This document shows positions 16,501 to 20,700 of a DNA stretch of 64,000 nucleotides, one piece after another. A program made the translations under genes and the position numbers. Below the pieces are notes generated by a model that was given only the letters and a program-made list of their open reading frames with translations, searched no databases and was not told where the DNA came from. Position 1 is the first letter of the stretch. Each line of letters begins with the position of its first letter. Source of the stretch: Rhodococcus sp. G-MC3 (GTDB lineage Bacteria > Actinomycetota > Actinomycetes > Mycobacteriales > Mycobacteriaceae); NCBI RefSeq assembly GCF_030063335.1, contig NZ_JASISW010000004.1, positions 124,001 to 188,000 on the forward strand, written 5' to 3'.

Positions 16501-17633
16501 CGACTGATCGAATCATCGAATTGCCCCAGAAACACCGCCAGCATCGACGGAACGAAGTGCGCAGTGGTCACGCCGTGCGAGGCCATGGTCCCCGCGATGT
16601 ACGCGGGATCACGGTGACCATCCGGTGCCGCGACGACTAGCGATGCACCCGCCTGCAGTGGCCAGAAGAACTCCCAGACCGACACGTCGAACGTGAACGG
16701 TGTCTTCTGGAGGACCACGTCCTGGGCAGTCAGAGGGTAATCGCGTTGCCGCCAATCGAGGTTCGCGACGATTGCCTCGTGCGAGACAGCGACGCCTTTC
16801 GGCCGGCCGGTGGATCCGGACGTGAAAATCACGTAGGCCGTGTTCTGCGGGTGCAGTGCACCCGCAACTCGTTCCGCGGGCATCAAAGGTGTGTCCGCGT
16901 GGCCGGACAGATCCACGGTGTCGACGAACAGGGTTTCGACCCCGCTCGGTAGTGCCGTTTCCTCGGATGTGGTGGTGACGACGAGAGCCGGCTCGGCGAT
17001 GTCGAGGACGTAGGCGATCCGGTCCGCCGGGTGGGAGGGGTCGAGGGGGACGTAGGCACCGCCTGCTTCCACGATGGCGTACATCGCAATCAGCAATTCC
17101 ACCGAGCGTGAGATGGACAGCGCGACCCGATCCTCGGGGCCGACTCCCAGATCCACGAGCCGTCGAGCCAAGCGGTTGACACGACTGTCGAACTCGGAAT
17201 AGGTGAGCCGGGTGTCGCCGAAGACGAGGGCGACGGCGTCGGGAGTTCGTTCGACCTGCGTGCGGAACCGCGACGGCAAGGTGTCCGGCCGCGCATCCGG
17301 GGACAACACATCCGGGGAAGAGGCCGAATCTCCGAGGAACTCACGGGCATCGGAGACAACGCCGGCGACGATGGCCTCCAGGCCGCCCGGGACGGTTTCG
17401 ACGGCGCCGGGTGCAAGCGTCGACAGCGCGAGCGGCACGAGTGCATCGGCCCCGAGCACACCGCCCATGGCGGTGTCCAAATTCGTCAGTTCACGGTGCA
17501 CGTCACCGTAGGAGAACGAGACATCCGTCGATGCGAATGCTGTCCGATCGGCGTCCGCGTCGGCGACCCGGGCAACCAACCCCGGTAGATCTTCGATCGC
17601 CGTCGAATGCGAACCGGGCCCACCAGACACCAT
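3669..17633 (-). CDS. NRPS subunit B, 4,654 aa: (A fragment)-A9-T9-C10-A10-T10-C11-A11-T11-C12-A12-T12-C13-(A fragment)
   Basis: Middle subunit of the assembly line. It starts with a decayed A-domain fragment (residues about 1-98), then A9-T9 (114-728), three C-A-T modules ending near 1,784, 2,841 and 3,898, a lone C13 (to about 4,350) and a truncated, degenerate A domain (4,361-4,654). There is no E domain, no methyltransferase and no thioesterase. A9 is loaded by C9 of NRPS-A, and C13 condenses onto A13-T13 of NRPS-C, so both ends are split modules. The carrier motifs are all GGNSL. C12 has YHIAADG where HHxxxDG is usual; the second, catalytic His remains. Substrate codes give Ser (A9), unknown (A10), the same unknown code as A1 (A11) and Ser (A12). 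The start is supported by GGGAGG 8 nt upstream of ATG. The gene lies 101 bp after NRPS-A, so co-transcription is likely. Confidence 0.95.
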   Translation of the reverse strand: MVSGGPGSHSTAIEDLPGLVARVADADADRTAFASTDVSFSYGDVHRELTNLDTAMGGVLGADALVPLALSTLAPGAVETVPGGLEAIVAGVVSDAREFLGDSASSPDVLSPDARPDTLPSRFRTQVERTPDAVALVFGDTRLTYSEFDSRVNRLARRLVDLGVGPEDRVALSISRSVELLIAMYAIVEAGGAYVPLDPSHPADRIAYVLDIAEPALVVTTTSEETALPSGVETLFVDTVDLSGHADTPLMPAERVAGALHPQNTAYVIFTSGSTGRPKGVAVSHEAIVANLDWRQRDYPLTAQDVVLQKTPFTFDVSVWEFFWPLQAGASLVVAAPDGHRDPAYIAGTMASHGVTTAHFVPSMLAVFLGQFDDSISRAERIPSLRQVFASGEALPAGSAARFHALFDAELHNLYGPTEAAVDVTYHRTGSSDLVSVPIGAAVPRTELRVLDDGLNRTPPGVPGELYLSGVQLARGYLARPDLTADRFVADLHGSAGERMYRTGDLVRWNSAGVLEYLGRTDFQVKLRGLRIELGEIEAALLEQEQVQQAVVVVLSDDSESGVDDRLVAYVVTTTGEADSEALSAGIRGRLPDYMVPAVFVALEAFPLGASGKLDRKALPKPDTAALTAEYRAPDSDVERALVSVFEDILGVEGLGVEGLGVDDDFFALGGNSLSATRAIARVNADLKVKVDVRSFFDSPTVAGLADLVENARLSGESAREPLAPRARPDQVPLSMAQQRMWFLNRLDPDSAVDNIPVAIRLSGRLDIDALAAAVDDVVERHESLRTRYPESDGVGHQVVLGGGTQVPRLRSEVVAEADVYDRVVEIVSRGFDVTSEVPVRLELLEINASEHVLVVVAHHIAADGFSMVPLTRDVVTAYAARNEGSSPGWAPLEVQYADFSLWQRAVLGSETDPGSVIAAQERFWTAALAGLPDQLDLPSDRRRPAVATGRGATYSTLVDTDVRRRIEAVASQNSATPFMVVHAALSVLLARLSGTEDIVVGTPVAGRGEQVLDDLVGMFVNTLVLRAEVNGRQRFTDLLAAVRRTDLDAFGNADIPFERLVDVLDPARSQARHPLFQVLLVFQNLGTTTLELAGLTVSGVEFDTAVAKMDLQVTVSEREDQWALDFTYATDLFDADTIASLASRLLVVLSAVGSAPDVVVGDIEIVESAERALVLNDWNATEHHVPDLTLLDSFHRTAVRVPDAVALSFGSEQLTYSEFSSRVARLARHLIERGVGPDVLTAVAIRRSLDMVIALYAVVEAGGGYVPIDPDQPAERNDYILDASNATVVLTTSRDDLVADSIESVRVESVRIDELDLTAYSDAPLTDADRRAPLHPDHVAYVVFTSGSTGRPKGVAVSHRAVVNQVSWIVSEYALGDLDVVLQKTPFTFDVSIWELFGAPASGAQLVIARPDGHRDAAYLADIIESQRVTATSFVPSMVPVFTTEIASRDASSLRLVQLAGEALPSSTVTALARATDAEIHNLYGPTEFTVHATSRPVGNVDGWNVPDASAPMGSPVWNTAAYVLDGNLNPAPVGVAGELYLAGPQIARGYHGRPGLTAERFVADPHRGGRLYRTGDLVRWNTSGELEYIGRTDFQVKLRGLRIELGEIETVARSASFVSDAVAAVMSDRLVLYVVAVAAATVDTEELASSMGQELPSYMVPAAIVVLDRLPLNAAGKLDRAALTEPEIEARAFRAPSTPIEEIVAGVFGDVLAVPRVGADDDFFALGGNSLIATQVVSRLGAALDTSIPVRLLFEVSTVSALAFRVESEVGSGARIPLEPRVRPARIPLSMAQQRMWFLNRLEPDSAVNNIPVAIRLSGLLDRYALHVAVADVLSRHEALRTVYPEIDGVGYQEVVSTRSVIPDLAPIPVDAAQLAASIEETVLAGFDVAARAPFRACLFEVSGAEHVLVFVAHHIAADGFSLGPLTRDVVRAYTARAAGLDLNWEPLPVQYADYTLWQREVLGSEDDPDSIISAQKAYWQNALGGLPEQLDLPFDRPRPAVASNRGRTHRFEISPALRSAVEDLAVQQRSTPFMIVHAAVAVLLARLSGTDDIAVGAPIAGRGEAALDDMIGMFVNTLVLRTRVEAPATFEEVLGQVRGSDLAAFANADLPFERLVEILDPARSTGRHPLFQVALFFQNLGQSELELPNLSVSAVDFDAGIAKFDLQIAVGDTEAGDRWSVEFIYATDLFDASSMEVIEARLLRVLSAVTANPSAVVGDIVLTAEDEAELLVRGWNSTDHDLVPEEMLLDGFAAAAAEHPNAVALSYEGEELTYGEFARRVDTLAHVLAGAGAGPEKLVALAVRRSIDLVVGMYAVLRSGAGFVPIDPDHPIERIGYILAAADPICVLTRASDEFVPPGSAPVVDVAAVPTGGEPRTGLRPRLSDHSVAYVIFTSGSTGKPKGVAVSHRAIVNQMEWMQSEYTLGASDVYLQKTATTFDVSLWGFFLPLRVGASVVLATPDGHRDPRYLAEVIDRKSVTVTDFVPTMLSVFAGAVTRSSLRTLRQIFVIGEALPGEAVRDFARVSNARVHNLYGPTEAAVSITYADVTDTAVGSSVTIGRAEWNCAAYVLDSRLSPVPVGVPGELYLAGVQLARGYYGRVDLTADRFVANPFVSPKNSASSRMYRTGDLVILRADGRLDYIGRTDFQVKFRGQRIELGEIEAALAAQPSVGLAAVSVMSTEAGDQLVGYLAPSSADANVDIDELRTALSATLPRYMIPGALMVLAEFPLNTSGKLDRKALPAPTFETKEFRAPTTPIEEIVASVFTDVLGLEHIGLDDDFFALGGNSLVATQMVSRLGAALNSTIAVRTLFEAPTVEALAARVELGTGGRLALTAMARPDRIPLSLAQQRMWFLNRLDPGSAANNIPAAVRLSGALDTTALHAALDDVVTRHETLRTVYPESAGTGIQVILPASSARTDFAAADVAESDVFSTVVSIVTEGFDVTRVAPVRIRLLKVSDTEHVLVVVAYHIAADGFSMIPLMRDVITAYVARAQGDAPTWSQLAVQYADYTLWQRQVLGSPEDPTSLVSTQETYWQNTLSGLADQLELPTDRSRPSVASGRGASHTFTLDSATTAAVDELAARRGSTPFMVMHASLAVLLSRVSGASDIAVGTPVAGRGEAVLDDLVGMFVNTLVLRVRVDGSSSFDEVLAGAREVDLSAFAHADVPFERVVEVVDPPRSQGRHPLVQVLLTFANFGSSSFELPGLTASSVDFDAAVAKMDLQVTVTEPQEQSDGTRSRTVEFVYATDLFDAATVARLGRQFAVVLREVTKNSTAPIGDIELVEAAERAWLLDEINATDSEVDSSATLVSMFDAQVASTPHAVALRFEGESLTYREFDARANRLARYLVSRGVGPEVCVAVAMRRSFDLMIALYAVIKAGGAYVPLDPEQPDDRIRYIARTASVALVLSTSGEKSTPDTDGLVLVDRVDLDSISDAPLSDGERGGSLTARNSAYVLFTSGSTGKPKGVTIDHGAIVNRLVWMQAEYPLAVSDVVVQKTPVTFDVSVWELFWPLQIGAVLSIARPGGHRDPAYLAEFVAAERVTVAHFVPSMLEVFAAEPTAPRADDLRIVFASGEALPSSTARNLKSVLPDVRVINLYGPTEAAVDVTFHEFTDADTASVPIGIPVFNTAVYVLDGRLRPVAVGAVGELYLGGAQLARGYASRPDLTSDRFVANPFSASGHRLYRTGDLVRWTTHGEIEYIGRTDFQVKLRGLRIELGEIESALLAIDSVSRAVVLVRDDRLVAYVVPASGATIDAGDIGASLSTALPDYMVPSAFVVLDEFPLGSAGKLDRKALPDPVFVAREFRAPASETEKVVAGVFAEVLGLELVGLDDDFFDLGGNSLVATQVVARVGGALDASVSVRLLFDASTVESFAGAVAELAGTGARPPLIAARRPTRIPLSLAQQRMWVLNNVDPESGAYNIPLAVRLTGALDVDALRGAVADVVARHEALRTIYPADGDGPQQRILDAADVSFDLTPERVDGEDDARRAVASLILGGFDVAAAVPVRVGLVELSPNEHVLALVVHHISADGASIAPLARDVMVAYSARSEGRQPEWTDLPVQYADFALWQRGVLGTVDEAGSTAHDQLEFWIETLQGSPDTLDLPSDRPRPPNQSMQGRSVGFELDALSHAGLVQFSRDRGTSLFMVVHACVAVLLGRLSGSSDIVVGTPVAGRGAAELDELVGMFVNTLALRTQVDFGGTFSSLVDDVRAADLGAFGHADLPFEAIVDAVVPARVAARHPIFQVALSFQNLERVRLDLPGLTVEGLDTGELGAKFDLQFTVEARTDEQGSPSGLFGSLLYATDLFDESTARTFGERLTRILTAVAADPYVIVGDIDIMSEQEREQTEGRATAHVDAGGAVVAAERTLPQVIGAVVEQDPESPAVAYGGEEMSYLEIEGRAARLARVLIERGVGPGDRLVVALPVSVDWAVAVTATILAGAAVVVAETARDVGQLVAESGAETVIGTLTTAVPDGVSLIANDAPDVTDAVSAASSRPIAYSARTRLLGAEDPAVIIVGDEGPIVVRAHGELVATLTGVGNRLALTYESRVLAAPATSDTWQLSALLTAALVGAAWVAPTREADGDLLDLVLDEWVTHAIVRSSDMDVLDSDEVEDLEAVILTDSPDDSSSSTGRAGIAVFAEERPFGRS
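4560..5940 (-). other. C13 domain, donor half of split module 13
   Basis: The condensation domain starts at IPLSLAQQRMWVLNNVDP and has an intact HHISADG. It is followed by no functional A domain. It should join the residue carried by T12 to the amino acid carried on NRPS-C. Confidence 0.85.
5941..9110 (-). other. NRPS module 12 (C-A-T), predicted Ser
   Basis: Pocket residues D-V-W-H-F-S-L-V-D-K match the known serine code, including that of EntF. The C domain reads AYHIAADG, with Tyr in place of the first His of HHxxxDG. The catalytic second His and the Asp-Gly are kept. Carrier motif GGNSLVAT, no E domain. Confidence 0.85.
9111..12280 (-). other. NRPS module 11 (C-A-T), substrate unknown, same code as module 1
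   Basis: Pocket residues read D-V-W-D-F-I-L-V-S-K (FDVSLW, VTVTDFVPTM, IFVIGEA, NLYGPTEAAVS), identical to A1. The acidic residue at position 278 could favour a basic substrate, but I do not recognise the code. C domain HHIAADG, carrier GGNSLVAT. Confidence 0.8.
12281..15450 (-). other. NRPS module 10 (C-A-T), substrate unknown
   Basis: Pocket residues read D-V-W-S-Q-A-L-V-H-K, one residue different from A3. Both carry the unusual NLYGPTEF signature. C domain HHIAADG, carrier GGNSLIAT. Confidence 0.8.
15451..17290 (-). other. NRPS module 9 (A-T), predicted Ser
   Basis: Pocket residues D-V-W-H-F-S-L-V-D-K give serine. Its C domain is the last domain of NRPS-A. The linker before the carrier motif holds an in-frame 5-residue duplication, EGLGVEGLGV, near 15650-15680. 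Confidence 0.85.
17340..17600 (-). other. N-terminal A-domain fragment of NRPS-B (possible docking element)
   Basis: Residues about 12-98 resemble the N-terminal edge of an A domain (FSYGDVHREL in place of LTYxELxxR), then stop. A complete A9 begins about 15 residues later. The segment aligns along its length with the tail of NRPS-A: DLPGLV against DLPALV, ALVPLALSTLAPG against ALITVALSQLVPG, and AMGG against AMGA. Confidence 0.7.

Positions 17634-20700: not shown

Follow-up and report, generated by a model that had tools for sequence, protein, structure and literature searches.

The subject of this work is a stretch of 64,000 nucleotides (nt) from Rhodococcus sp. G-MC3 (hereafter the window; its genome is G000), which encodes large nonribosomal peptide synthetases (NRPSs). 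At the break between two of these, NRPS-A and NRPS-B, a module is split between its condensation (C) and adenylation (A) domains, and two homologous domains of about 95 residues face each other across the split: one, Ct, ends NRPS-A, while the other, Nt, begins NRPS-B. By sequence comparison both belong to a single derived domain family, and we consider it fairly probable, on the strength of the sequences and a predicted structure, that they act as a docking-domain pair for this intramodular C//A split. On this reading, the family would have arisen from the N-terminal edge of an A domain (helix, hairpin, helix) to which a further C-terminal helical part is joined, and Ct and Nt would bind mutually as a pseudo-symmetric heterodimer. 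The pair would thereby hold the end of NRPS-A (thiolation domain T8, then C9) beside the start of NRPS-B (A9-T9) and rebuild the divided module, whereupon C9 would join the chain on T8 to the residue on T9 by condensation. We infer both the binding of Ct to Nt and its role as what lets the chain pass from T8 via C9 to T9. The parts of the break are as follows, in window positions and with lengths in amino acids (aa):

17735..47923, minus strand: NRPS-A, 10062 aa, with eight A-T units and the accompanying C domains (two E-like domains); it closes with C9-Ct.
18041..19384, minus strand: C9 condensation domain (Pfam Condensation), before Ct.
17738..18022, minus strand: Ct, the C-terminal fragment domain of NRPS-A, its last 95 aa, immediately after C9.
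17634..17734, minus strand: intergenic gap of 101 nt, with a GGGAGG-like ribosome-binding site at 17640-17647 (sequence read directly).
3669..17633, minus strand: NRPS-B, 4654 aa, with Nt-A9-T9, three C-A-T modules, C13 and a truncated A domain.
17319..17615, minus strand: Nt, the N-terminal fragment domain of NRPS-B, residues ~7-105.
16200..17267, minus strand: A9 core (Pfam AMP-binding), after Nt.

NRPS-A stops at 17735-17737, and the ATG of NRPS-B lies at 17633 with the GGGAGG-like site upstream; since a ribosome-binding site precedes this ATG and the two genes are in different frames, the boundary between them is a true one. The domain order puts T8 and C9 on NRPS-A and A9-T9 on NRPS-B, so that the split of the module falls between C9 and A9. 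This agrees with an earlier note on this DNA, made from the sequence alone, which had placed the two ends where the chain passes from T8 via C9 to A9-T9. In the domain scan about 105 aa precede the complete A9-T9 at the start of NRPS-B. A Pfam scan of NRPS-A and NRPS-B detected no AMP-binding stretch over Ct or Nt, and the other C-A junctions of these two proteins show no insert of the Ct/Nt type. For comparison we used 37 named loci spanning Rhodococcus, Rhodococcoides, Prescottella and Antrihabitans, which overlap with a 37-genome set of the genus; as they were retrieved via Ct itself, through two conserved peptide patterns, they measure the presence of Nt given Ct and not the frequency of Ct. 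An annotation or frameshift artefact is ruled out by the stop that lies between Ct and Nt in 37/37 of these loci. In three of them (L101, L107, L120) the Ct and Nt genes share one frame with one stop between, while L108 and L112 have additional frame breaks, the Nt of L108 being without an in-frame A domain behind it.

A single-sequence search of the host genome with Ct recovered Nt (E 5.7e-5, 26% identity) as well as the Nt of a further synthetase, NRPS-D, described below (E 1.3e-7, 34% identity). Profiles of Ct (20 sequences) and Nt (19 sequences), drawn from the genus, matched each other over 95 columns with a probability of 99.5% and E 7.2e-23, far above chance, which confirms the homology that the earlier note had claimed for the two ends; a control T-domain profile gave E 0.28 with Ct and 0.13 with Nt. 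The note had also read both ends as N-terminal A-domain edges, and this survives for about the first 59 columns: a profile built on 76 N-edges of A domains, taken from the present synthetases and related ones, matched Ct at E 5e-9 and Nt at E 1e-8, over 59 columns only. It fails for the last third (PGILPALG...), which is common to Ct and Nt, is helical in the AlphaFold2 (AF2) model discussed below and has no match in the profile of 76 edges. It fails likewise in so far as it implied two independent remnants: when 107 fragments were placed in one tree with 12 A-domain N-edges, the fragments clustered together with support 0.975 on a branch of 1.49, many inner supports being low. Thus, relative to the A domains of the ANL superfamily, Ct and Nt are alike in the alignable N-edge, and differ in their size of ~95 aa, in having no later A motifs, so that they are not complete AMP-binding domains, in their distinct last third, and in forming a clade of their own.

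A joint Ct/Nt profile compared with solved A domains matched LgrA at E 5.6e-8, a value that is the sum of two individually weak stretches, and gave weaker matches to TycA and others. When 54 members of the family were scanned, neither Pfam nor NCBIfam yielded a dedicated model for the domain: the 16 Pfam families that they matched at E up to 1 include no docking-domain model, Pfam AMP-binding was matched by one of the 54 (E 0.13), and the NCBIfam matches were partial ones, to models of entire enzymes from the A-domain superfamily, with NRPS_MxcG in 16/54 (best 1.1e-5) among the 25 of 35 families listed. As far as Pfam, NCBIfam and literature searches reach, the domain is undescribed.

A search of other NRPS termini, which the earlier note had raised, found the pair again: Nt stands behind Ct at the same C//A break in 37/37 named loci, and G129 has a Ct/Nt pair at the break of a differently built synthetase. 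Within the 37 genomes of the genus, a strong Ct occurs in 30, with a second match within ~0.6 kb in 30/30; three others carry a fused giant (G005, G015, G041), three have nothing, and the single weak match of G016 (4.4e-7) was not counted. Across the family, Ct had matches at E 1e-6 in 150/301 genomes and 16/31 genera, a cut-off that may let in ordinary A domains, and Nt at E 1e-10 in 123/301 genomes and 13/31 genera. Searches of the order and the phylum at E 1e-12, which scored at most the 15 best candidates per listed genome and may have missed some, gave 7/298 and 3/296 genomes, respectively, with every match inside the family of the window's genome. Copy counts in two genera, g43 and g38, were taken solely in genomes that already matched. 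The pair is adjacent in all 17 g43 genomes that match the Ct/Nt family searches, and exactly two copies at E 1e-10 are present in 19/19 strong-match genomes of g38, where 16 pairs are adjacent and 3 unlinked (this count left out G073, with no match, and G196 and G288, with one weak match each). The unlinked cases (G166, G319, G282) retain both halves, with Ct on one large contig and Nt on another; in G079, from a genus other than g38, Ct and Nt are ~10 kb apart.

Selection was assessed on 36 of the named loci (L108 was dropped), in which mean pairwise identity is 0.55 in both Ct and Nt, against 0.65 in C and 0.68 in A. From 72 close pairs, not independent of one another, the median ratio of nonsynonymous to synonymous rates (dN/dS) comes to 0.17 for Ct, 0.17 for Nt, 0.10 for C and 0.12 for A; these are rough values, with dS near or above 1 in many pairs. 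They place both halves under purifying selection and point to a domain that is kept by selection. It is scarcely credible, then, that Ct and Nt are inert leftovers of a broken A domain: the A-domain N-edge likeness of their first ~59 columns would fit such an origin, but the dN/dS of 0.17, the shared C-terminal part that is unmatched in A domains, and the wide conservation of the domain across many species and in stand-alone genes led us to reject it.

For structure prediction AF2 was given the natural in-frame Ct-stop-Nt of L101 (R. hoagii), with the stop read as a residue and an alignment of 26 rows, 3 of which cover Nt; alignments A3, A4 and A7 were excluded from folding as their Ct rows fell on the Nt part. 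The per-residue confidence (pLDDT) of the model is mostly 80-96 in both halves and below 50 in the linker, the predicted template-modelling score (pTM) is 0.65, and each half shows the same order of helices and strands, H-E-E-H-H-H. A confident predicted fold for each half is hence established, as are the anatomy of the break, the homology, the conservation of both halves there and the purifying selection on them. By our own estimate, two halves of ~98 residues without a defined relation would give a pTM of about 0.4, and the value of 0.65, a single number, thus argues that the halves are placed against each other; the model suggests that they pack, consistent with a dimer. Both fragments fold again in a model of 1051 aa that covers C-Ct-Nt-A. 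Foldseek with the Ct/Nt model found no match in the PDB at E <= 0.001, a fold comparison gave weak matches, mostly to ANL enzymes (top Z 5.2 over 75 residues), and no betaHD chain (the beta-hairpin docking domain, see below) is among the matches listed from the PDB fold searches. The apparent packing of two homologous copies in a tandem model fits a homodimer signal too, in which case each copy would self-dimerise and NRPS-A and NRPS-B would become dimers rather than be joined to each other. We hold this to be very improbable, as Ct and Nt are divergent (26% identity), yet sequences of either type are conserved among themselves.

Several observations weigh against docking. The packing comes from one single-chain model with only 3 rows for Nt, and packing may be what AF2 gives for any pair of homologous copies; the 1051-aa model, with a mean pLDDT of 63.9, a pTM of 0.42 and three rows covering its C domain, is uninformative on geometry. 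Both halves are acidic, with mean net charges of -4.6 and -11.2, which rules out charge complementarity between Ct and Nt. Further, no Ct-Nt coevolution was found after removing the C and A distances (partial rank correlation -0.03, with 1234/2000 permutations as high), in a test that has little power because the same control for C-A is itself -0.07; modules may recombine. To these come the single, unpaired and stand-alone occurrences of the domain. In the fused giants, where docking between proteins is unnecessary, single internal copies are kept: all 10 that were fetched read C-f-A-T-C-A-T-C-f-A, f being the fragment domain, with two single copies two modules apart. In these proteins (L134-L141, L033, L034) we also observed that the A domain after the first internal fragment scores low on the local A profile (226-255), while most other A domains score 320-510.

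A second kind of unpaired copy is found at the start of NRPS-D:

G000:C47:103734-117953 (L051, L031), minus strand: NRPS-D, downstream of the window, with Nt, four modules, C and a truncated A domain, as in NRPS-B.

NRPS-D begins with Nt in 9/37 genomes of the genus, and in 9/9 of these the nearest NRPS upstream of it is without a Ct. That upstream protein ends in a bare C domain in seven (G003, G004, G010, G021, G044, G047, G049) and in C-T in two (G000, G042). The terminal C of G049 has no relative in G000, G004, G042 or G047 above ~42% identity, which ordinary C domains reach as well; G004 and G047 nonetheless have a different bare-C protein upstream of D. Because the fused giants keep single copies and NRPS-D lacks a Ct on its nearest upstream NRPS, we regard a structural spacer as the main rival to docking. 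The domain would then be an insert that sets, for example, C-A geometry on its own protein, and the two copies at the break would be a by-product of the gene split (a duplication across the junction), with no contact needed between them. The single copies at two C-A junctions in 10/10 fused giants, the NRPS-D Nt in 9/9 genomes and the coevolution result are all in its favour. Nevertheless, it leaves the remaining C-A junctions of NRPS-A and NRPS-B bare of any such insert, and it has to be set against the Nt that follows Ct in 37/37 named loci and the packing of the halves in one AF2 model; on balance it seems rather unlikely.

In 9/17 g43 genomes a stand-alone gene encodes this domain only, in open frames of 118-424 aa (7/9 read), and lies on a different contig from the split pair or, where the contig is shared, megabases off. 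Stand-alone loci that we noted are L148-L152, L160 and L161. At the four with listed neighbors (L148-L151) a hydrolase-like gene follows on the same strand in 4/4, and 3/3 of those scanned match the carboxylesterase family PF00135. Such genes, together with the NRPS-D Nt that has no adjacent Ct, would suit a recruitment platform, in which the domain would have as its partner not its twin but another protein (a tailoring enzyme, hydrolase or chaperone). We think this distinctly unlikely: the stand-alone gene is far from the split pair, and recruitment leaves unexplained why the domain stands on both sides of the same break in 37/37 loci. In the three unlinked g38 genomes, a gene for a tandem A-A protein lies behind Ct, and this protein could be its real partner. 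We located it at L146:6124-8685, L145:3413-7513 and L172:5394-7952; a scan of one of the three, the L146 protein, matched no T domain, and by eye the A3-type motifs of this protein appear degenerate.

The docking pair that the earlier note had suggested is thus borne out in part. It is favoured by the Nt at all 37 Ct loci, the purifying selection, the packing predicted in one model and the retention of both halves in 3 unlinked genomes; the absence of Ct-Nt coevolution, the occurrence of the domain singly in fused giants, on NRPS-D and in stand-alone genes, and the lack of its use at the next break, NRPS-B//NRPS-C, keep the support partial.

As in docking pairs generally, the C-terminus of one subunit and the facing N-terminus of the next each bear a dedicated domain, Ct and Nt (37/37 named loci, and 30/37 genomes of the genus). 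The docking domains named for NRPSs in the parts of PMC9113145 available to us are COM, PAX and the beta-hairpin type. COM and PAX are likewise natural terminal elements that pair consecutive NRPS proteins; COM, however, sits at E/C junctions (PMC9113145, same parts), as against C//A for Ct/Nt. The betaHD, found in NRPS and PKS-NRPS lines (PKS, polyketide synthase), has an alpha-beta-beta-alpha-alpha fold and acts at PCP/C or PCP/Cy breaks, where its partner is a disordered C-terminal motif of under 15 residues (PMC9113145, same parts). It resembles the present domain as a small folded N-terminal domain with a helix, a hairpin and helices at a subunit break; it differs in place, the Ct/Nt break being C9//A9, and in partner, since Ct, at ~95 aa, is a homologue of Nt and has a predicted fold of its own. 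Split modules of trans-AT PKSs have four-helix-bundle docking domains made of ~25-residue regions (PMC9113145, same parts); these too are a docking pair at an intramodular split, but differ in those short regions, in their origin, and in belonging to PKSs and not NRPSs. Hence, Ct/Nt stands apart in its place (C//A), in its type of partnership (two homologous folded domains) and in its origin (an A-domain edge), and by the features tested it is not a member of the COM or beta-hairpin types. Literature searches, largely confined to open-access papers, turned up no A-derived docking pair and no docking class for a C//A split, in keeping with the earlier note, which knew of no described class built from paired A-domain remnants. 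Ct/Nt is probably a new docking variant, seen in one family.

The NRPS-B//NRPS-C break (window 3672-4496 and 2-3622, minus strand) is also a C//A break, and is built differently, with a truncated A domain facing a basic leader:

3672..4496, minus strand: truncated A domain at the C-terminus of NRPS-B, ~275 aa, with no recognisable SGSTG motif, at a second, different C//A break.

The last 300 aa of NRPS-B have a net charge of -27, NRPS-C begins with the very basic leader RRSRPRRPRRTR, and a truncated A domain ends NRPS-B in 6/6 relatives viewed (G003, G004, G010, G021, G042, G049). The domain scan showed no Ct/Nt pair at this break, and we reject Ct/Nt as a general rule for all breaks of the cluster. 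At its other end (L031:15295 onwards, minus strand) NRPS-C closes with C-T and no thioesterase, and contig C47 yielded nothing to a thioesterase query at E 1e-15. The interval between NRPS-C and NRPS-D holds a PF00756 esterase gene (L031:14053-15291, minus strand), whose product by eye looks mycolyltransferase-like and secreted; similar proteins are found at the same place in G003, G010, G021 and G044. Elsewhere, in G003, two adjoining NRPSs (L058 and L059; G003:C8:6970-13005 and 13090-26859) each have a basic leader, an A start and a thioesterase-type end. From their domain order they look like alternative last subunits, possibly a sign of branching lines.

The window's genome itself raises the question of branching, as it has one Ct and two Nt. 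NRPS-B and NRPS-D share the same four-module layout, with A-domain identities of 0.58, 0.41, 0.53 and 0.39, and G000 showed no bare-C partner upstream of D such as its relatives have; behind NRPS-D, no NRPS frame of at least 600 aa was found within the ~19.7 kb read. For these reasons we entertain, as an unlikely extension of docking, that the one Ct on NRPS-A serves as a branching connector, coupling to the Nt of either NRPS-B or NRPS-D, so that one cluster would make more than one long peptide by means of a new, A-domain-derived docking class.

Should the pair dock, it would constitute an NRPS docking class of new origin, from the edge of an A domain, and unusually placed, between the C and A domains of one module, and so small a C-to-A joining pair could then serve in the construction of hybrid synthetases. 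The docking reading can now be tested with two fragments of ~100 residues. A single bacterial family moreover offers the natural controls: pairs that are split and adjacent, split and unlinked, fused, duplicated, or represented by stand-alone genes.

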